DNA from: a virus
Reading direction: 5' to 3' (one strand)
Virus record (IMG/VR): IMGVR_UViG_3300008261_000093
Span: 1-52,461 of that record
Length of the DNA stretch: 52,461 nucleotides
Part shown: positions 29,118 to 39,451 of the stretch, piece by piece
Position numbering within the stretch: position 1 is the first letter of the stretch
Layout of the letters: every line of letters begins with the position of its first letter
Translations under genes and position numbers: made by a program
The notes under the pieces: generated by a model
Database searches by the model: none
The model's input: the letters and a program-made list of their open reading frames with translations, nothing else
What the model was told of the DNA's origin: nothing

Positions 29118-32100
29118 TTATAGCTCCGATGTTTGGCGAACAAAGCCACGATTAGCCTTGTTAGTTTGTACCCCGCCAACTACACTTCTTTCACGTTTAG
29201 CTTGTTCTTGTGGAGCTTTCAGTAGTATTGACAACGATTGTCTTTTAAATCCATTACGAACTCTTGACTGTTGTAGTTCTTCCCAATCATTTCGTGCATC
29301 TGATAGACCCACTCCACTTCTATACGCACGTGCATACGCACGTTTGATTTCGCTGGCCTTATCATTATAAAACTTCTCGTACTCAAACTTGGCATTTTGT
29401 AAAAATTGTTTATCGGTCAACTGCTTAGTAGGTAGCCCAATTCCGGCCATAAATGCTTCGGCAAAGCTAATATCCTCTGCTGGGATAAGTACATCGTCTC
29501 TACGTGATGTAACCCCTTCAGTGGCAAATCTATAGCCCTTCATGGCATTGGCTACACCGGTAGGCATAAGCTGCTCTAAGCCCTTGTAGTAGTCCCCCTG
29601 ACCCATTAATGATATGCCGTCAGCGGCTTTAAGGGTTAAACCACCGAATGGGCCGGTCATTAGGGCAAAGCCTGCTTCGGCAACACCCCTACGGCTAAAG
29701 TCTATATCTGTATATGGCAGGATTGAGAGCATCTGACCCATACCGAGCTTGCCCGAAAGGTCTACACCCAAAGCTGCAGGCACACCCTTAACTATTAAGT
29801 CTGCAAGGGTATCATCGCCAATAGCCCGACGCATAGCCAACTCTGGGTTATCAGGCTCATCCTCATCTCCAAAGACCAGACCATACAGGAATGATAGAGC
29901 CGCAAACCCTGGTAATCCCATTACCCCGCCCATAGCTGCGGTATGTCCAATTGTAAACATCAGGGCGCGGCGACCAATTCTGCGGGTATCTGCATCTTGA
30001 CCTGCAAATGCGTCGTTAAATAAGCGAGCCATCAGGCTTAGCTGGATAAGCTGGAACTTACGGAACTGGGTAGCTAAACGACCTAAACCTTTACGACTAA
30101 TACGTGGAGCATTAAATCCACTGTAGTCACCATGGGTTCTGTAGATTATGCTGTCAGCGTAGTTAATAGCATTGGCTTTATTGTTAGTTCTAGCCTCAAG
30201 ACGGTACGCAGCCACTGCAGTTGCTACACGGTTAATGGATTCAATGTCTTGGGCAATCCCACGGAGATATTCAGTAGCACGACCAAACTTATCTAACTTA
30301 GAGTCTTCAGTAGATCTCCAGCGTCCTAAGTCCTGCTCCAGGCTAATGTCAATTCTTCCCCGGTTAACCAGTTCTTCGACAACATCCTTAACATCCTGTG
30401 GCAGCTTGTTATAACTGTCTTCGCCAAGACCATGCCTACGAATAACGCTGGCAATATCAGTATACGCACGAGTAAACTCTTTCCATGACTTATCGTAGCC
30501 ATGCTTAGCACCGACTACTGGCAAGGACATCATGAATGGCTGAGTCATGTTCTGTAAATAGTAGGATGGGTTAGTTAGTAACATCCATACAGAAGTCGTA
30601 TTTAAAGCCTTATCAATAAATGGCGATGGCTCGTAGTCTAGCCCCATTACATGACGCTTCATAAACTCGTTGTAGTACCGGCTACGTTCTGCTCGAGTAC
30701 CTTCTGTGCCTTTTCTGGCTTCCTCTTTCATATCCCGTAAAGAGTCATAGATCTCTTCAGAATTCTCTAAAGACGAGATAAAGTGGGCTGTAGCACGGCC
30801 TTGCGTAGCAAATGCACGCATCATATCTTTTTCAGCACCGGCAATCTTACGGCGACGCTTCTCAGACTGGCGAGCAGACTGCTCAGACAACAGGCTTAAA
30901 TGAAGATCGGATAGTAAGCGATTAATCGTTCGTTCAGACTTGTCAGTAGTGTTGCTGTCTTGGGTGTCGGCTATTTGGTCAGGGGCAGACTTGGGGTTAT
31001 CCCTAATGCTTTCCTGATCTAGGTATGCCTGTGAACGACCAACAACTACATAATTACCAAAACGCTTAAGTGGAGCGTAAGGACCTTTATTTCCCATACG
31101 CATCAAAGTTCTGTATTCAGCTAACGAATTGGCTTTTTTCTTAGTAAGTTCGGCTACTTCAGTAACATCACCGGCTTTTTGCGCTGCAGCAATTAATGCA
31201 TCGTATTCGGTATTGATGTTGTTAATAACCGCATCTTGCATTGCCTTTAGCGTCTGGCGCCCATGATCAAAGACTTCTTTAATAAGGTTTTGGGCTACTA
31301 CAGGGAATGCTTCAAAACGAGTTTTTAACTCTGGGTCAATCTTCGAACCCTTAATGTTAGCGTCATAACCCCACTCACCTTTCATGGTTGAGTCTTTAAT
31401 AAATGCGTTTACGCTATTCTCGCCAACACCCCTTACCTCATTTGGTAAGGCATCATACTGTTGCAAAATCTTATCGATACGACGCTCAAGAGAAGTCCTA
31501 ATTGCTTGCTGGGCTTTTACCAACTGAACATAGCGTTTTGCCGATGGCAGATATTTAGATGCTAAGTCAGCCAAATCTTCGGTAAATGCAGCAAATGGTA
31601 AGCCCTTCTTAGCAAAGTCAATGATGTTATCGGTAATTGCTTGTAATGGACCACGGATTGGCTTGGGTAGTTTTGCTACCTGCTGGGCTGCTGTTTGACG
31701 TGCGGCATTTAAACCTGCTTTGGAGAACTGTACTTTTTCTGTGTCAGCACCAACTAAAGACAAAGCACGGAAGATGTCTTCGTCGCTAAACATGACGATG
31801 TTTTTGGTAATTCTTTCTTCCGATGTATTTTTACGAGATGTGGCATCTTTAAATTGATTACCTTTAATACCTTGTTCATACAAAAACTGAGACACTACCC
31901 GTTGAGCTTGTTGTCCAGAAGCTAATACTTCTTTGTCTTTTACAGCTTTAACTAACCATCGTGGATCACCTAAAGCAAGAGCTTTTATACCAAAATAAAG
32001 GTCATGTCCTGTGGCTTCTTCTAAAAGTACTCCAGCATTACCTAAAGCTGCCTCAATAACCATAGCTTGGTCGTCAGGAAGATTTTTTAAAATGTTGTAG

Positions 32101-35100
32101 ATATATGGCTGATCTTTAACCTTCTTATCAAGATCAAGAAGCTCTTCTGGACGAGCATTAATATCCACCCGCATTAAATTACCAGGTACGCCTTCAGTAG
32201 CTGTAGAAAAATCAATTGGATTTAGCTTGTTTAGCGCATCAATAAAGCGCTGATTTGTACCACTTCTGGTACCAATATCATTATTGTCGATACGTTTTTG
32301 CCAGCTTTCAATTTCAGCTTTAATAGCTTGCAAAACAGTTGGATTTTTTACAGATAATCCCATCATGGCAGATACAGGACTTTTCATGCGTCGTATAACA
32401 TCAAGAGCTACGTTTGTCTCAATATCATCACCAGTTTTACTAAAAGTAGCCATAACTGATCTACGCAGGTCTCTAACAGACCGGCCTTTGTAGCGATAGC
32501 CTACATCTTTAGTTTTGTTTTTAACATCAGTTTTCCAGTACTGATATGCAATTCCTGCTTTTTGAGCAAGATATGTACCCCAACCAAAAGCTTGAGCACC
32601 TTCTCCAGTACCCATAAATCTTTGGTCAAATCTACGGAATGAGGCTGCAGTACCATGCCATGTGCCACCTATTTCTAGTCGTGCGGCACCATAAGCAATA
32701 TTAATAATGTCCTGAGCGTCAATTTTGTCAGGATCAAACGTATTCAAACGACGAATTGCAGTTTTAAATGCAGCCCACAAAGTACGGAACCAACGGCCTA
32801 ATTGGGTATCAGGTTTAGTAGCGGTTGGGTCTATGTCGTGTAATACAGCTTCTTCTATAAAGTAAGCAATTAATTCTGTATTAGCTTGTTCATTTTCAAC
32901 ACCTGTAGAACGCTCTAACGCTTTTTTAGCAATTACTGACTCAATAGAACCGTCATCTTTTTTAGCCCACTCAAGAACAGTATCTACTAAGTAGTCAAAC
33001 TGCTTCTCTGTAAGCATCTTTTGGATGCCTAAATGTGAGCCTACTTCGTGCATAAACACAGCACGTGCTGTGCCTGGCTTAATATTATCTGCAATCAAAT
33101 ATGCTTTATTTTTCCAAACAAACGCTTGGTCACCGGCTTTAGGATTGGCTGCAATTTTAGCGTCAAGAGGCAAGTCTTTTACCGACTGGAAGACTTCTAC
33201 ACGACGAAGATTTTCACCACCAATAAAGTCTTTTAACTCTTGGCGTATTTCTTCAGCGTTGGAACTTTCGCCACGTTCAACAGCTTTAGAAAACTCTGGT
33301 TTATTGCGCTCAAAGACAATATTCATGTCGGCAAGTTTTGTATTACCAGTTTCTACTGAGGCTTGCCAATCATCTTGTACTTCTGGAGATAGCTCGTCGT
33401 AAGTAGGTAGCCCATACTGCTCAGCTTTAGTGTCCCACTCTTCTCGTGCTGTTTCTTCTAGCGTCCTCGCGCTGACTTCTTCATCGGCTTGTTCATCTTC
33501 TGTGGCAGCTTCGACCCTTTCGGTGTCTTTGCTTGGAACTCTCTTGCCAGTTTCGGCTTGTTTGCGTACAGGAACCCCTTTTGTGCTTCGCTTTTGAACG
33601 GCATTTTTCTCTTCTCCTTTACCAATACGAATCTCTTCGCGGCGGTTAATTTCTTTAACAATGGCTTGAATTTCTGCGTCTGTAATACGCTCATCAATAG
33701 CTAAGTTGTTGAGTTCAAAGTCTTTTAAAGCCTGTAAACCCTGCTTCTTAAACTTCTGATAAGTTCTGTTTGCAGCCGATGCATCCTCAAGTTCAGTAGC
33801 TCCGCTTTCTTGTGGGTTAAATACTCTAAATCCAGAAGCACCACCACCTTCTTTTTCGGTAGTTTCTTCACGACCTAAAGTCTGCTCACCCTCAGCTTCC
33901 ATAGCAGCATCTTCAGCCATGGATGGACCAGCCTCATCTGATACAGCAGCCTCACGAGCAGCCGCAGCTTCAAAGTCTAAGTCTTGCTCAGTAAGTGTTT
34001 CGGCTTCAGTAGCAGCTTCAGTTTCAGCCGTAGCTACAACCATTAGGTTATAAATTTGATCTTTTGTATAACCTAGGCGTTTAGCCGCTTCAAAAATACG
34101 AGCACCCCAAGTCTCTTGAGCTTTTGGCCCAGCAATTTGAGCAATACGAGCATCAGATACACCATACTCATCCGCAATCTGTACAGAGGTCTTTTCCCCT
34201 GTAAGGTATTCCATAACAATACCGCCATCACGAGTACCGAACGCTGAATTAACAATCGTTCTAATTCTCTCAATTGCCTCTAGGCGGTCGTCAGGAATTA
34301 CTTGCGTTTCTTGCTCTTGCCCAACACTGGGAATGGCATTATCGCCCCCACTGGTACTGGGCTCAACCCGTGGTCGTACACTTCCTGGTCCGACATCTTG
34401 GACTGTACTCGGGAGTATAAGGTTGCTTCCTGTCCCGACGGGTCGAATTTGGTCGGGTCGTACAGGCCCAACGAGTCCACCGCTTGTTTCTGCTGCTCTT
34501 CCTTGCTCTGGTACTGCTCCCACCCCGGTAGGCACTCGCAATTGCTGCTTTTCATTTTTTGCTCCTTTAGTTGTGTTTGTTTCGGATGCTAATTGCTGAA
34601 GGGCTACAAAAGCTGGTGCATCCTTACCAGTTAAAGCCTTATAAAAATTGTTGAGCTCATCGGCTTCTTTCAAAGCTTTTGGGCCTTCCAAAGTACTAAT
34701 TAAAACCTCTGCACGCTCGGCAGCTTCTGCTTTATCTGCCGAAGTATCGATACCCCACTCAGATAAGAATTTAACTGCAGCAGCATTAACAGCCTTGGCA
34801 GTAGACTTAAGAGGTACTTTTACAGCACCAGAAGATAGAGTTGCGCCAATAAGCGACTTTTGCTCTGGGGTCTTATCTTTATTAAGTGCGTCGAGCTCTG
34901 CCAAAAACTTAGTTGCATCAGCCTGACTAAATAGTGTTTTCCCTGCAATGTTATAACGACCAGCTACTTGAGTTGGCTGTACACCATAGGTAGAGGAAAT
35001 CTCGTCAAATGCAGCTTGAGTTTCTTGTTGTTTTTGAGCAGCTTGTTGTTGTGCTACTTGGGCTGCTTGCGCTTGCTGCGCTGCAGCAACTTGTGCTGAA

Positions 35101-36212
35101 GATGGTACGGGTGGGCCGGCTTGCTCAGGTGGTTGTGGGCCAACTAATGCTTCTCTTGGGGGTGGGCCGACCAGAATTTCTGAGCTATTAGCGTCAATAG
35201 CTTTATTAATAGCATTTTCGTCAGGGGTTTTACCCTCACCAGTACTGATGTTAGTAGAGCCAGGCAATAGACTATTAGGTGCAGTAACTCTATTTAAAGT
35301 ACCGACAACGGCGCCAGTACCACCGCCCAATAAACCACCTAAAGTAGCTGAGCCAATAACACCACTTAAAGGCTGAATAGTAGGAGCAAACTCACCTGCG
35401 GCAAGGTTAGCAGATAACTTAGTAACACCTTCTTCAACAAATTCTGAGCCTGCTTCAGCTGCAGTTGTTTTTAATATGCTTTTTGTACCAGCGGCAAATG
35501 CTTTATCAGCACCAACTAAACCTGACGCTGCACCAATAATAAATGGTAGTGGGGCTGCACCTCTAGCTGCACGGGTGGCAATCTGCTCACGCTCTTCAAT
35601 CGGTAAGTCTTGTAGTTCAGGAGCATTCATTACCATTTGGTAAGCATCGCCAGACGCATCACCACCTGCAAGAACACCACCGGCAGTACTACCGCCAGCT
35701 AAACCAGCTCGGGCAACACCTCTCTCGGTTAGACCAAGGGCGCCACCTATCATTCTTCCACCTTTAATTGCGGCACCTGGGCCAACAAAACTACCAATTG
35801 CTTGGGATGCGGCTAATAAAGGATTTTCTTTTACATATTTAAATGCACCTGCGGCTTGTTCACCTAAGTCTTCGGACTGCATTGAACGACCAAGTTGATA
35901 CTTAGCTTCGGCTGCAGTAAGTGATTGTTTCTTTTCACCTTCTTCAATAAAGCGACCGATAGCAGCAGAAGTTTCTGTGCCTGGTTTTACTAGATCAATA
36001 GCTGCTTTGGGTAAAGATGCTACAGCATTTCCAAACTCAATAACATAATCGTTAGCTGCGCCTAATACACCTCGTTTTTCGGATATACCTAAATAGCCTG
36101 CTACTTCCATGGGGGAAAGACCAGTTAGCTCGACCCCTTTATCTAAGATCTGTCGATCAGTTAGGTCTTTAGCCCATGGTGCTGCTTGGCGAATATCGTC
36201 AAACAAAGACAT
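29118..36212 (-). CDS. Giant polyvalent protein (ADP-ribosyltransferase-like, zincin-like)
   Basis: 2364 residues, the longest gene here. Residues about 130-320 are Gly/Ala-rich and hydrophobic and could enter or cross a membrane. A Gln/Ala-rich linker (about 350-400) and a region-4-like helix-turn-helix (about 643-720, SVQIADEYGVSDARIAQIAG) follow. A variant zincin motif HEVGSH is at 1055-1060. An ADP-ribosyltransferase-type segment begins WHGTAASFRRF (H1186) and continues GAQAFGWGTYLAQK. The C-terminal third has long helices and hydrophobic stretches of the LPD38/PLxRFG type. Such polyvalent proteins are thought to be packaged and ejected with the genome to act on the host early. Two small genes are nested in its linkers. 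Confidence 0.85.
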   Translation of the reverse strand: MSLFDDIRQAAPWAKDLTDRQILDKGVELTGLSPMEVAGYLGISEKRGVLGAANDYVIEFGNAVASLPKAAIDLVKPGTETSAAIGRFIEEGEKKQSLTAAEAKYQLGRSMQSEDLGEQAAGAFKYVKENPLLAASQAIGSFVGPGAAIKGGRMIGGALGLTERGVARAGLAGGSTAGGVLAGGDASGDAYQMVMNAPELQDLPIEEREQIATRAARGAAPLPFIIGAASGLVGADKAFAAGTKSILKTTAAEAGSEFVEEGVTKLSANLAAGEFAPTIQPLSGVIGSATLGGLLGGGTGAVVGTLNRVTAPNSLLPGSTNISTGEGKTPDENAINKAIDANSSEILVGPPPREALVGPQPPEQAGPPVPSSAQVAAAQQAQAAQVAQQQAAQKQQETQAAFDEISSTYGVQPTQVAGRYNIAGKTLFSQADATKFLAELDALNKDKTPEQKSLIGATLSSGAVKVPLKSTAKAVNAAAVKFLSEWGIDTSADKAEAAERAEVLISTLEGPKALKEADELNNFYKALTGKDAPAFVALQQLASETNTTKGAKNEKQQLRVPTGVGAVPEQGRAAETSGGLVGPVRPDQIRPVGTGSNLILPSTVQDVGPGSVRPRVEPSTSGGDNAIPSVGQEQETQVIPDDRLEAIERIRTIVNSAFGTRDGGIVMEYLTGEKTSVQIADEYGVSDARIAQIAGPKAQETWGARIFEAAKRLGYTKDQIYNLMVVATAETEAATEAETLTEQDLDFEAAAAREAAVSDEAGPSMAEDAAMEAEGEQTLGREETTEKEGGGASGFRVFNPQESGATELEDASAANRTYQKFKKQGLQALKDFELNNLAIDERITDAEIQAIVKEINRREEIRIGKGEEKNAVQKRSTKGVPVRKQAETGKRVPSKDTERVEAATEDEQADEEVSARTLEETAREEWDTKAEQYGLPTYDELSPEVQDDWQASVETGNTKLADMNIVFERNKPEFSKAVERGESSNAEEIRQELKDFIGGENLRRVEVFQSVKDLPLDAKIAANPKAGDQAFVWKNKAYLIADNIKPGTARAVFMHEVGSHLGIQKMLTEKQFDYLVDTVLEWAKKDDGSIESVIAKKALERSTGVENEQANTELIAYFIEEAVLHDIDPTATKPDTQLGRWFRTLWAAFKTAIRRLNTFDPDKIDAQDIINIAYGAARLEIGGTWHGTAASFRRFDQRFMGTGEGAQAFGWGTYLAQKAGIAYQYWKTDVKNKTKDVGYRYKGRSVRDLRRSVMATFSKTGDDIETNVALDVIRRMKSPVSAMMGLSVKNPTVLQAIKAEIESWQKRIDNNDIGTRSGTNQRFIDALNKLNPIDFSTATEGVPGNLMRVDINARPEELLDLDKKVKDQPYIYNILKNLPDDQAMVIEAALGNAGVLLEEATGHDLYFGIKALALGDPRWLVKAVKDKEVLASGQQAQRVVSQFLYEQGIKGNQFKDATSRKNTSEERITKNIVMFSDEDIFRALSLVGADTEKVQFSKAGLNAARQTAAQQVAKLPKPIRGPLQAITDNIIDFAKKGLPFAAFTEDLADLASKYLPSAKRYVQLVKAQQAIRTSLERRIDKILQQYDALPNEVRGVGENSVNAFIKDSTMKGEWGYDANIKGSKIDPELKTRFEAFPVVAQNLIKEVFDHGRQTLKAMQDAVINNINTEYDALIAAAQKAGDVTEVAELTKKKANSLAEYRTLMRMGNKGPYAPLKRFGNYVVVGRSQAYLDQESIRDNPKSAPDQIADTQDSNTTDKSERTINRLLSDLHLSLLSEQSARQSEKRRRKIAGAEKDMMRAFATQGRATAHFISSLENSEEIYDSLRDMKEEARKGTEGTRAERSRYYNEFMKRHVMGLDYEPSPFIDKALNTTSVWMLLTNPSYYLQNMTQPFMMSLPVVGAKHGYDKSWKEFTRAYTDIASVIRRHGLGEDSYNKLPQDVKDVVEELVNRGRIDISLEQDLGRWRSTEDSKLDKFGRATEYLRGIAQDIESINRVATAVAAYRLEARTNNKANAINYADSIIYRTHGDYSGFNAPRISRKGLGRLATQFRKFQLIQLSLMARLFNDAFAGQDADTRRIGRRALMFTIGHTAAMGGVMGLPGFAALSFLYGLVFGDEDEPDNPELAMRRAIGDDTLADLIVKGVPAALGVDLSGKLGMGQMLSILPYTDIDFSRRGVAEAGFALMTGPFGGLTLKAADGISLMGQGDYYKGLEQLMPTGVANAMKGYRFATEGVTSRRDDVLIPAEDISFAEAFMAGIGLPTKQLTDKQFLQNAKFEYEKFYNDKASEIKRAYARAYRSGVGLSDARNDWEELQQSRVRNGFKRQSLSILLKAPQEQAKRERSVVGGVQTNKANRGFVRQTSEL
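33458..33604 (-). CDS. Nested small basic protein (MPFKSEAQ type)
   Basis: 48 residues, read in another frame inside the polyvalent gene (its codons 870-918). AAAGGAG (33620-33614) lies 9 bases before the ATG at 33604. The sequence MPFKSEAQKGFLYANKPKLA, then FQAKTPKGSKLP, closely matches a small basic protein that occurs as an ordinary gene in many tailed phages. That match in an overprinted frame is very unlikely by chance. The host frame here encodes a low-complexity, charged linker, so it tolerates the overlap. Function of the family unknown to me. Confidence 0.75.
   Translation of the reverse strand: MPFKSEAQKGFLYANKPKLAREFQAKTPKGSKLPQKMNKPMKKSARGR
34298..34555 (-). CDS. Nested small protein in the polyvalent gene
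   Basis: 85 residues, same alternative frame as the other nested gene, covering polyvalent codons about 553-638. AAAGGAG (34568-34562) lies 6 bases before the ATG at 34555, an ideal ribosome site. The peptide is protein-like, not shadow-like: MKSSNCECLPGWEQYQSKEE, then DPTKFDPSGQEATLYSRVQS and a VGAIMPFPVLGKSKKRK tail. It fills exactly the linker before the polyvalent helix-turn-helix. Family unknown. Confidence 0.65.
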   Translation of the reverse strand: MKSSNCECLPGWEQYQSKEEQQKQAVDSLGLYDPTKFDPSGQEATLYSRVQSKMSDQEVYDHGLSPVPVGAIMPFPVLGKSKKRK

Positions 36213-36226
36213 ATTGTATTAATCCT

Positions 36227-37603
36227 TTAAGGCATCATTGAAGATGCGATGTTTCTATCTGTATCGTCTGGTATTGCTTTAGGTGGTAATTTTGCACCAG
36301 GAGGAGGCTTACCATTAAAATTTTTAAATGCGTCAACAACTGGATTAGATGCCCCACCTGGTAGCCCCGTGGCGGGAATAAACTTACCCGCTTTATTAGG
36401 ATCTGGTACAAAAAGCTGTCCGTTAGCAGTTACAGAACCATCTGAGTTAACAACAATTCCTTTAGTTTCAGGAGCTTTTAATACCAAACCAATAGCATAC
36501 TTTTTAGCTTCTGCTGGAGTATATGGCTTATTTGTCTTAGGATTAATTTCTTGAGACTCAACAAGCATGTCAGCATATTCTTCAGCACGAGCTTTTGCAC
36601 TATCAGTTTTTGATTTTCCGCCACTACGTAAATACTCTGCGTAACCTTTATAGTAATCACCTTTATCAGCGGCTTCTTTCTCTTTAATGCCAACTTCACG
36701 CTCTTTGAGTCCTATCTGGCGCTCACCTTGCATATAAGCAATAACTTTATCTGGCGAGCCTAAAAGGTTTACAGACTGGGTCATAAAACGATTCATTGCT
36801 GCTTCAGACAATTTACTTACGGCACTATTTGAGTCACTTATAGTTTCTAAAACATCACCTTTAGGACCAAGAACTTGAATACGGCTACCAACACCATTTT
36901 TACCTTCTACAAACTTTAGGTTCTTCAGACCGTTTTTAGAGGCAACATCATAAACACCTTTTAAACCAAACGAATCAGCAGCACCTTGAATAGCAGCTAA
37001 ATCATCATTTAATTTTTCTTGGCTCTTAAAAAATTTGTCTTCGTTTTCAGATTGACGAACAACTTGTTTTAGCTGAATAGCTTCTAATGTACCTTTACGG
37101 CTAATCTGACCGGCAGCTTTTACATAGTCTTCCATGCCTCTAGCTTTTGTATACTCAGTAGGGCTCATCGCAGGAAGGGCAGCTTGAGGTCGTCTTTCCC
37201 CTTCAGCAGGTGCTTCAAAATCATATCTGCGAGTTTCTTTAGTTTCGCCTGATTTCATATATTGAGCGTTTTGACGCATTGCACCGACCGCAGATGCAGC
37301 AGCATCTCTTTCAAAAGCTTGATCTTCAGCGGTATTACCTGCTAGAGCACCTTGATTAGAAAGCATCTGAGCTTGTTGCGTACCAATTTCGCCACCGGTT
37401 TTTAGGGCTTGAGTGTAATCATCAGATTGCCCTACTCTAGCTTGAGATTGACGCCATGCAGCATCGAGTGCTTCTTTCTCAGCAATGTCTTTTTCAAGCT
37501 GCGAACGTTGTAACTGTTTAAGTCTTATATCTTCTGCACGCTCATAAGCTTTTACTCCAGATTCTGCTACTGCGCCAGCAAAGGCTCCCCAGTTCATTCC
37601 CAT
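36227..37603 (-). CDS. Probable internal virion protein
   Basis: 458 residues. N-terminal NWGAFAGAVAESGVKAYERA and a long charged helical part (about 30-130 and 300-360) suggest a coiled-coil internal core protein. The C-terminus is Pro/Gly-rich. It lies upstream of the polyvalent protein in the ejection-protein block, as T7 gp14-16 homologues do. No enzymatic motif. The assignment is positional. Confidence 0.6.
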   Translation of the reverse strand: MGMNWGAFAGAVAESGVKAYERAEDIRLKQLQRSQLEKDIAEKEALDAAWRQSQARVGQSDDYTQALKTGGEIGTQQAQMLSNQGALAGNTAEDQAFERDAAASAVGAMRQNAQYMKSGETKETRRYDFEAPAEGERRPQAALPAMSPTEYTKARGMEDYVKAAGQISRKGTLEAIQLKQVVRQSENEDKFFKSQEKLNDDLAAIQGAADSFGLKGVYDVASKNGLKNLKFVEGKNGVGSRIQVLGPKGDVLETISDSNSAVSKLSEAAMNRFMTQSVNLLGSPDKVIAYMQGERQIGLKEREVGIKEKEAADKGDYYKGYAEYLRSGGKSKTDSAKARAEEYADMLVESQEINPKTNKPYTPAEAKKYAIGLVLKAPETKGIVVNSDGSVTANGQLFVPDPNKAGKFIPATGLPGGASNPVVDAFKNFNGKPPPGAKLPPKAIPDDTDRNIASSMMP

Positions 37604-38335
37604 TTAAATCTCCAATATCTCGTGGATTCCAGCCATGTCAAGTGCTACAGCTTGGCTAATTTGTCTAATAATACTCGTTACTTCTTTATGTTTTTCAGGG
37701 TGAAACTTTTTAATATACTTCATGCGTTCTTTGCTATCCCCACAATAAGCAGTGCAATTCCAGCAATCTAAAGACGAATGAGCCATGCTCAAACGCTCAG
37801 TAATTTCTACATTATTTGCTTCTAAAAACTTAGTTACTTTACTATTATCCCAGTCTTTTATGGGGAAATAGTATTCAATACCATCAAAAGTATCACCTGA
37901 TTTAAAGGGAGAACGATGAGCTTCATCAGATCGCTGTCCACGAATAATAGCTGTTACTCCTAGTTTTCTAGCTATATCATCAGCTGGCTTCCAAAAGTTG
38001 TCGTGGCAACAATCCATGTAACTGCGAATTTTAATTGGTTTACTTTTAGTACAAGCTTGACCATATGAAGAATAAGAAATTGGAACTATATCAGCAGGAT
38101 AGCCGTGTTTTGCTATAGAAGCTGGCTGGTCAGTTTGGACTTCAAGAAAATTAGGTACAGAGCTACGAATTACTTTCATCATTTCAATAATTTCTGGAAA
38201 CGCTGCGCCTGTATTAACCCAAATAAGAATCGTTTTATCCAAATAGTCTTTTATTAGGTGCAAACAAGCAAGCGAATCACGCCCACCTGAAAACATCAAG
38301 GCTACTTTTTCATGACGGTTAAAAAAATCTTTCAT
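37604..38335 (-). CDS. PP-loop enzyme, PAPS-reductase/DndC-like
   Basis: 243 residues from the ATG at 38335; an earlier start would overlap the upstream gene. The PP-loop ATP-binding motif SGGRDS (16-21) follows VALMF. WVNTGAAFPEIIEMM, AIIRGQRSDEAHRS and FPIKDW are typical of the phosphoadenosine-phosphosulfate reductase fold. A Cys-rich C-terminal part (LDCWNCTAYCGD) could bind a metal or take part in redox chemistry. Relatives include CysH and the DNA-phosphorothioation protein DndC. It is unusual to find one among virion genes; the substrate is unknown. Confidence 0.85.
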   Translation of the reverse strand: MKDFFNRHEKVALMFSGGRDSLACLHLIKDYLDKTILIWVNTGAAFPEIIEMMKVIRSSVPNFLEVQTDQPASIAKHGYPADIVPISYSSYGQACTKSKPIKIRSYMDCCHDNFWKPADDIARKLGVTAIIRGQRSDEAHRSPFKSGDTFDGIEYYFPIKDWDNSKVTKFLEANNVEITERLSMAHSSLDCWNCTAYCGDSKERMKYIKKFHPEKHKEVTSIIRQISQAVALDMAGIHEILEI

Positions 38336-38360
38336 TAGTAAGCTGTAATAGCCGCTCCAC

Positions 38361-39032
38361 CTAAACTTGATTACCAAATTGACCTTGAGATAGAGCAATT
38401 GCATCCATTTTCTTAGCCCATCCTAACTGCTCAGCCGCAGTACGGGCACGATTAGCAGCCGCAGAACCAACCGCAGCTTCCATAATAGAGTTAACATTAC
38501 CTGTAGATACAGAACGACCAGATGTTGGGTCAATACCAAAAGACTGTAAACGACGCTGCTCATCGGCTGCCTTAATACCAAACGCAGATTTAACATCGCC
38601 AAGGGCTTCGGAAGCTATACGCTCACGATTTGCGTCTGTATCATAGTCGGTGGCAGCTTTATAAATGCTTTCACGCATTGGCTTGCCTTTTGTTTCAAAC
38701 TCTTCCATGGTTTTTTTAGCAGAACTAATCTGCATTTCTTGGAGTTCTCTATCTAAAGCAAACTGCTCATCTGCTCGTACGTCTTGTTTTTCCGCCTGTT
38801 CTTTTATTTTAGGCCAAACATCATTTTTCCAATTATCTAAGTACTCTCTAGAAATCTTAGCCATTTCTTGCTGAGCAATACCAATATTGGGATCTGGAGC
38901 AGGAGCAGAAACACTGGCTCCGCCACCGCCTTTACCACCACCTTCAAGTGTCATGCCACGGGCAAAAGGCCCAGACCCACCACGGGGGGAAAACGCCCGC
39001 TCGGGTAGCATCGATTCTAAGTCGTATCTCAT
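38361..39032 (-). CDS. Probable internal virion / ejection protein
   Basis: 223 residues. A Gly/Ser/Ala-rich N-terminus (about 18-45) is followed by long helices with coiled-coil character (ISREYLDNWKNDVWPKIKEQ, SSAKKTMEEFETKG), and an Ala-rich C-terminus (MEAAVGSAAANRARTAAEQL). The pattern resembles small internal core proteins of podoviruses that help build the ejection channel. No motif gives direct proof. The end leaves a 25-base gap to the PP-loop gene. Confidence 0.6.
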   Translation of the reverse strand: MRYDLESMLPERAFSPRGGSGPFARGMTLEGGGKGGGGASVSAPAPDPNIGIAQQEMAKISREYLDNWKNDVWPKIKEQAEKQDVRADEQFALDRELQEMQISSAKKTMEEFETKGKPMRESIYKAATDYDTDANRERIASEALGDVKSAFGIKAADEQRRLQSFGIDPTSGRSVSTGNVNSIMEAAVGSAAANRARTAAEQLGWAKKMDAIALSQGQFGNQV

Positions 39033-39451
39033 CGCTTAATCTCCAGCCATCGGCACTCTTCTTTTAGCATGCCATATAAAATAAAATTACTTCCATCGCT
39101 AGCACCTTTACGAATCAAACCTTCTCGTTTAAATCCAAGATGCTCATCAAACCTTTGTGCGTCTAAATTGTCTTCTCTAACAAGCCCTGTGATTCTGTAA
39201 CATTTTACCTGCAAAAAAGGATAAGCAAAACAACGATATAGGTAGTCTTTAGTCATCCATCGCCTACCTGGTACTGCTGCTACATGCATCATAATTGATG
39301 GTCCTGTGTACAAATTAAACACCACACCAGCAATTAACTCACCATCTTCTTCTAACCCAATTGCCACAGCCTTACCAAAATCGTCTTCGTCGATCCTAGA
39401 ACCGACCCAGGGGATTATCCTATCTTCTTGGCCATAAATAGCTGTTTTCAT
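39029..39451 (-). CDS. GNAT-type N-acetyltransferase
   Basis: 140 residues. GELIAGVVFNLYTGPSIMMH, then VAAVPGRRWMTKDYLYRCFA and EHLGFKREGLIRKGASDGSN follow the GNAT order: strands 4-5, acetyl-CoA helix, and the C-terminal NxxAxRFxExLGFxxEG-like block. Similar acetyltransferases are common in podovirus morphogenesis regions. The substrate could be a virion or host protein. Start overlaps the upstream context by 4 bases with the gene ending at 39029. Confidence 0.85.
   Translation of the reverse strand: MKTAIYGQEDRIIPWVGSRIDEDDFGKAVAIGLEEDGELIAGVVFNLYTGPSIMMHVAAVPGRRWMTKDYLYRCFAYPFLQVKCYRITGLVREDNLDAQRFDEHLGFKREGLIRKGASDGSNFILYGMLKEECRWLEIKR

Follow-up and report, generated by a model that had tools for sequence, protein, structure and literature searches.

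Sequence evidence for a conserved small gene nested in the +1 frame of a giant polyvalent gene of a podophage

Can the linker of a giant phage protein hold a second gene in another reading frame? The question is raised by a short open reading frame (ORF) in a 52,461-base virus record, the whole of which was analyzed and is called the window here. The window carries podophage genes: portal/head-tail adaptor, terminase, internal virion protein, tail fibre, holin, endolysin, and DNA polymerase. It also carries a giant ORF at 29118-36212 (-), encoding a cysteine-free polyvalent (DarB/PLxRFG-like) protein of 2364 aa. We refer to this ORF as the outer, or host, gene. The short ORF, gene A, occupies 34298-34555 (-) and runs for 85 codons from ATG to TAA. 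It lies wholly within the outer ORF in the +1 frame, codon position 1 of A being outer position 2, and it begins at outer residue 552. The encoded protein is MKSSNCECLPGWEQYQSKEEQ...GKSKKRK (full translation: MKSSNCECLPGWEQYQSKEEQQKQAVDSLGLYDPTKFDPSGQEATLYSRVQSKMSDQEVYDHGLSPVPVGAIMPFPVLGKSKKRK). A Shine-Dalgarno (SD) sequence, AAAGGAG, lies at 34562-34568 (-), 6 nt before the ATG, and is read as K-G in the outer frame. A preliminary description, made from the letters alone, had reported this 85-residue frame with its AAAGGAG at 6-base spacing and had placed it in a linker of the polyvalent protein. Both observations held. The outer-frame reading of A is a cysteine-free linker rich in Gly, Gln, Val, Thr, Ala, Ser, and Pro, with aromatic residues nearly absent.

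The host gene belongs to the polyvalent ejection proteins (Iyer et al. 2017, PMC5512222), as its C-terminal matches show. Residues 1776-2300 of the outer protein match the DarB-like family phrog_10089 (E 3e-54) and similar families, and this C-terminal part also matches PLxRFG/DarB proteins of cultured podophages at 22-28% identity. The 2364-aa protein is predicted to be packaged and ejected into the bacterial host. The preliminary description further placed a helix-turn-helix of the outer protein just past A. A Pfam match does lie there, but it is sub-threshold (E 0.14-0.18), and this region has no alignment in most of the distant relatives.

The simplest alternative to a gene is a chance ORF, with the A frame open merely through conservation of the outer protein. 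By itself the length of A is ordinary. When synonymous codons of the giant gene were shuffled, 83% of the shuffles had an ATG ORF of at least 85 codons in one alternative frame or another, a figure that favors chance, and several antisense ORF clusters are of this chance kind. Such an ORF arose in the +1 frame in 19% of shuffles and at A's own place in 0.2%. One with an AAGGAG/AGGAGG-type SD arose anywhere in the giant gene in 0.7%. The other long nested ORFs of the giant gene lack the codon-position signature described below or a comparable SD, so the many equally good nested ORFs that the preliminary description had held up as a warning did not appear. It is conservation that settles whether A is real.

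IMG/VR searches seeded with the A protein returned 3, then 21, then 35 loci. With repeats removed, these A-seeded searches gave complete A homologues on 37 contigs, and a search seeded with the outer protein added one more (L159), for 38 other IMG/VR contigs. A 39th A-bearing contig (L038) holds a partial A, cut by the contig end. The homologues are 36-98% identical to the window protein, and every one lies within a giant ORF, in the same +1 frame. These giant ORFs encode 2,261-3,119 aa where complete. Wherever the outer start is present, A starts at outer residue ~520-690, and the SD sequences before the homologues are of the AAAGGAG, AAAGGA, GGAAGG, and CAGGAG types. Since A-derived seeds found most of the homologues, the apparent invariance of the motifs LPGWEQY and FNPSxQE is inflated. 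Repeat searches were seeded with the outer N-terminal domain, using a single protein because the N-terminus is too variable for a multi-sequence search. An intact A was present in 15 of the 15 outer-seeded contigs whose extended match reached the site. Contig L159, new from these searches, has a diverged A sequence with its own SD, and L148 ends before the A site. Three near-identical contigs (L149-L151), in which only the first 52 outer residues are shared, carry neither A nor the second nested gene, B, described below; their linker is intact and similarly G/Q/A/T-rich. The preliminary description had asked whether the frame is broken in close relatives. It is intact in all of them, the 15 outer-seeded contigs included.

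Substitutions within A show which frame is conserved. Among the four closest sequences, outer codon positions 1/2/3 differ by 0.194/0.071/0.027 inside A. In the alignable parts outside A the values are mostly 0.06-0.25/0.02-0.2/0.2-0.47. Position variation is thus reversed inside A. Read in the nested frame, positions 1/2/3 of A differ by 0.096/0.056/0.167 (34 close pairs), and the 860 changes in these pairs include 436 that are silent in the nested frame but just 125 that are silent in the outer. This is the codon-substitution asymmetry that the preliminary description had proposed looking for, and the position-specific rates indicate purifying selection on the A frame. Within A, the nested protein is the better conserved of the two, which counts against an ORF held open by its host. 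The SD is also retained against codon bias. It reads Lys-Gly in the outer frame at 32 of 35 loci, and its Gly codon is GGA at all 35, whereas GGA accounts for just 7-21% of Gly codon usage in the same genes. A chance ORF is hardly credible on these grounds, and at the sequence level that reading is already refuted.

The outer frame is constrained over the same DNA. When codons are resampled for A's amino acids, the outer frame stays open ~0.07% of the time per locus and 0.2-2.8 outer cysteines are predicted across A per locus, whereas the real frame is open and free of cysteine at 35 of 35 loci. Owing to common ancestry among the relatives, the per-locus figures are non-independent and are not simply multiplied; their direction is uniform across strongly diverged sequences. 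T occupies 4.7% of A's wobble positions, against 32.5% of outer wobble positions elsewhere. A therefore combines an ORF lying entirely inside another in a different frame, purifying selection on that frame, constraint on the outer frame, and, as far as sequence can tell, an independent initiation signal. Judged from these features, A is almost certainly a genuine nested gene, and both frames are very probably translated. The sequences show that this DNA is maintained for two proteins, and the evidence as a whole makes it very likely that A is a true protein-coding gene in the +1 frame of the polyvalent gene.

How would A be produced? We propose that ribosomes start inside the long late polyvalent mRNA at the conserved SD and ATG, giving free A protein. 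The outer frame supplies a flexible, cysteine-free linker of the giant protein, and the nested frame encodes A. The position of A on the same strand in the +1 frame would also suit a programmed frameshift from the polyvalent frame, which would end the polyvalent protein early and add A as a tail to its N-terminal part. Nested conservation, however, begins at A's ATG, and both the SD and the distance from it to the ATG are conserved. Upstream of the ATG, a stop closes the A frame within ~10 codons in the window's close relatives, and a further nested ORF, C, follows A by stop-start coupling. A frameshift is highly unlikely given these features, and internal initiation is the mechanism that we prefer.

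ORF C starts at A's stop or no more than 21 nt from it, in the same frame, in 24 of the 35 A loci. The junctions read TAAATG or TAA-SD-ATG. Where C follows A, it would be made by translational coupling, and in many relatives A and C would form a nested mini-operon. C is seen in relatives only, the window having none. It is more variable than A. Some C sequences begin MNKPAKALWVAGKHPVNP..., and others may be unrelated replacements. The selection signal on C is weak, with 0.035/0.059/0.073 at positions 1/2/3 (12 pairs). Apparently several unrelated C (ALWVAGKHPVNP, PWLSQLW, and FQVPPKSP types) occupy one slot after A in L010, L012, L017, and other contigs. Just past A's stop in L006, TAGTAGTAGGAGCAATTCC resembles the leftover SD of a lost C, which suggests that C disappeared from the window's group.

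Gene B lies farther along the outer gene, at 33458-33604 (-), and encodes 48 aa (MPFKSEAQ...). Its longer ORF spans 33458-33697; the real start is the ATG at 33604, preceded at 9 nt by an AAAGGAG SD (33614-33620, -). The preliminary description had assigned both nested ORFs to one frame and strand. The shared frame is borne out, and both are conserved genes. B matches phrog_1375 (E 6e-5), a family of small phage proteins that are usually free-standing. The MPFKSxAQ profile of this family is matched by B and not by A, which falls outside it. Nested B shows the same signature as A, with positions 1/2/3 differing by 0.054/0.051/0.194 (47 pairs). B would be made from its own SD, and the polyvalent gene would thereby double as a small operon, yielding small late-phase proteins by internal initiation.

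The phrog_1375-like viral loci that we retrieved number 80 and are mostly free-standing. At least 17 further B genes are nested, in the +1 frame, in other giant cysteine-free ORFs of 1,670-3,804 aa. Several giant ORFs that host B have no detectable similarity to the window polyvalent protein, and nested genes in giant phage genes may therefore be widespread. Nesting of B in other giant ORFs is seen in L065, L069, L079, L085, L087, L095, L099, L105, L112, L116, L124, L130, L132, L134, L137, and L139. The outer ORFs around B in L106, L107, L110, L119, L122, L129, and L138 are short and were not counted, being probably over-extended upstream.

Two origins had been offered at the outset, namely that linkers are a refuge for small genes or that the giant gene grew over genes that were once separate. 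In a scheme of the second kind, A, C, and B began as small late genes of their own; the giant gene formed when the ejection-protein genes on either side became linked through them in a different open frame. B fits this scheme well. It is free-standing in most of the 80 loci and adjoins or lies near the portal gene in L080, L096, and L109; in L096 it sits between the portal gene and an 848-aa cysteine-free ORF. The large proteins flanking free-standing B, however, gave no informative homology matches to the nested hosts and are not recognizably homologous to them. A and C resemble ordinary operon neighbors in their TAA-ATG junctions, but free-standing A was not found among the IMG/VR homologues retrieved. 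The confinement of A to one phage lineage, never free-standing, is instead what overprinting would give, in which a disordered linker was there first and A emerged de novo from its +1 frame, the linker tolerating nearly any outer sequence free of stops and cysteines. The intact G/Q/A/T-rich linker of the A-less L149-L151 also speaks for overprinting and against absorption. Codon usage is less decisive. The score of A is atypical for the phage (-0.26, against an outer-window mean of +0.13), but dual coding itself is expected to produce such usage, T being barred from the nested wobble by the outer frame, and outer-frame codon usage across A departs from the norm as well (-0.11). Overprinting, moreover, cannot account for B. 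For A the evidence is balanced, and absorption and overprinting are equally plausible, each falling a little short of an even chance. For B, whose free-standing homologues are common and diverse, we favor overgrowth of a once separate gene. Growth of the giant gene over older genes thus gains ground for B, while for A neither proposal prevails. Since B exists both nested and free-standing, overgrowth and overprinting can be told apart by phylogeny.

How does this arrangement compare with known nested genes? In phiX174, gene E is nested in gene D in another frame and is expressed by internal initiation; E is a lysis inhibitor, and the tiny ssDNA genome is under size pressure. A is likewise a functional gene in another frame of its host, as the conservation implies, but its phage is a dsDNA podophage of ~50-60 kb. 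The closest known architecture is that of lambda Rz1 in Rz, a small gene inside a larger phage gene, on the same strand, in the +1 frame, with its own start, and missed by gene callers. Rz1 is an o-spanin lipoprotein that works with the product of its host gene in lysis, whereas a hydrophobic signal sequence or lipobox is absent from the A alignment as judged by eye, and A is not considered a spanin. Unlike Rz/Rz1, up to three nested genes occur within one 7-9 kb ejection-protein gene. Embedded, overlapped, and separated Rz/Rz1 spanin architectures all occur, the embedded genes are usually left unannotated, and an upstream stop-codon mutation has been suggested as a route to embedding (Kongari et al. 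2018, PMC6139136). The nested and free-standing forms of B parallel this variety. A word search of the polyvalent protein survey (PMC5512222) found no mention of overlap, alternative frame, linker, or cysteine, and the open-licence literature that we searched yielded no account of genes nested in polyvalent genes. The locus offers a clear, statistically strong case of dual coding in a dsDNA phage of medium size. By its example, phage gene catalogues may overlook conserved proteins that lie concealed in giant virion genes, and a second coding layer can apparently be accommodated in the disordered linkers of ejected proteins.

What might the A protein do? Its members are ~80-90 aa long and soluble, with an N-terminal Cys cluster in most and a basic tail. 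The search of the peptide against phage proteins, advised in the preliminary description, found homologues in the 38 other IMG/VR contigs and none in GenBank phages (tblastn, E up to 1 and 10). Against Pfam, PHROGs, and NCBIfam there were weak matches alone, for example to phrog_18572 (E 0.13). No significant match was found among PDB sequences, and no homologue in 85,000 bacterial and archaeal species genomes. A ribosomal S16 match (7 of 17 A members, best E 0.004) was judged a chance LGxYNP motif. AlphaFold models from 17 and 33 sequences were helical and of low confidence (pLDDT 59-61), with no fold. A seems to be a new conserved protein family, apparently unannotated.

Because A would be co-expressed with the ejected protein, and because free-standing B lies beside portal genes in several phages, we tentatively suggest that A could be a late-phase cytoplasmic helper in the handling or assembly of virion or ejection proteins. 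A more specialized role is rather improbable. A would then serve as a private chaperone or immunity-type partner, holding the polyvalent protein translated alongside it in an inactive or threadable state inside the producing cell. Such a role would accord with the tie between A and one type of polyvalent N-terminus (the 15 outer-seeded contigs that reach the site) and with a weak ART-PolyVal match in the window outer protein. That match, seen in the window protein, is sub-threshold (E 0.0034), and B occurs in phages without such polyvalent proteins. It is similarly speculative that polyvalent ejection genes are two-layer genes, in which the disordered linkers of a cysteine-free giant protein also serve as a cassette for the small late genes A, C, and B, expressed by internal initiation and coupling; some of these would be dedicated partners holding the giant protein in an inactive or threadable state until it is packaged.

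Scarcity of cysteine marks the giant proteins throughout. There are none in the 2364 residues of the window outer protein and 0-2 per giant protein of up to ~3,100 aa across the 35 loci. The 17 other B-bearing giant ORFs, of up to 3,804 aa, have none each. This scarcity is presumably linked to ejection and could mark ejected proteins; the near-absence of outer cysteine is also an unusual protein-level marker of real outer-frame translation. Directly upstream of the polyvalent gene, a 458-aa protein (36227-37603, -) is cysteine-free as well, has no PHROG match, and is possibly another ejected protein. The late structural block also contains PAPS-reductase-like and acyltransferase-like genes, at 37604-38404 (-) and 39029-39451 (-).
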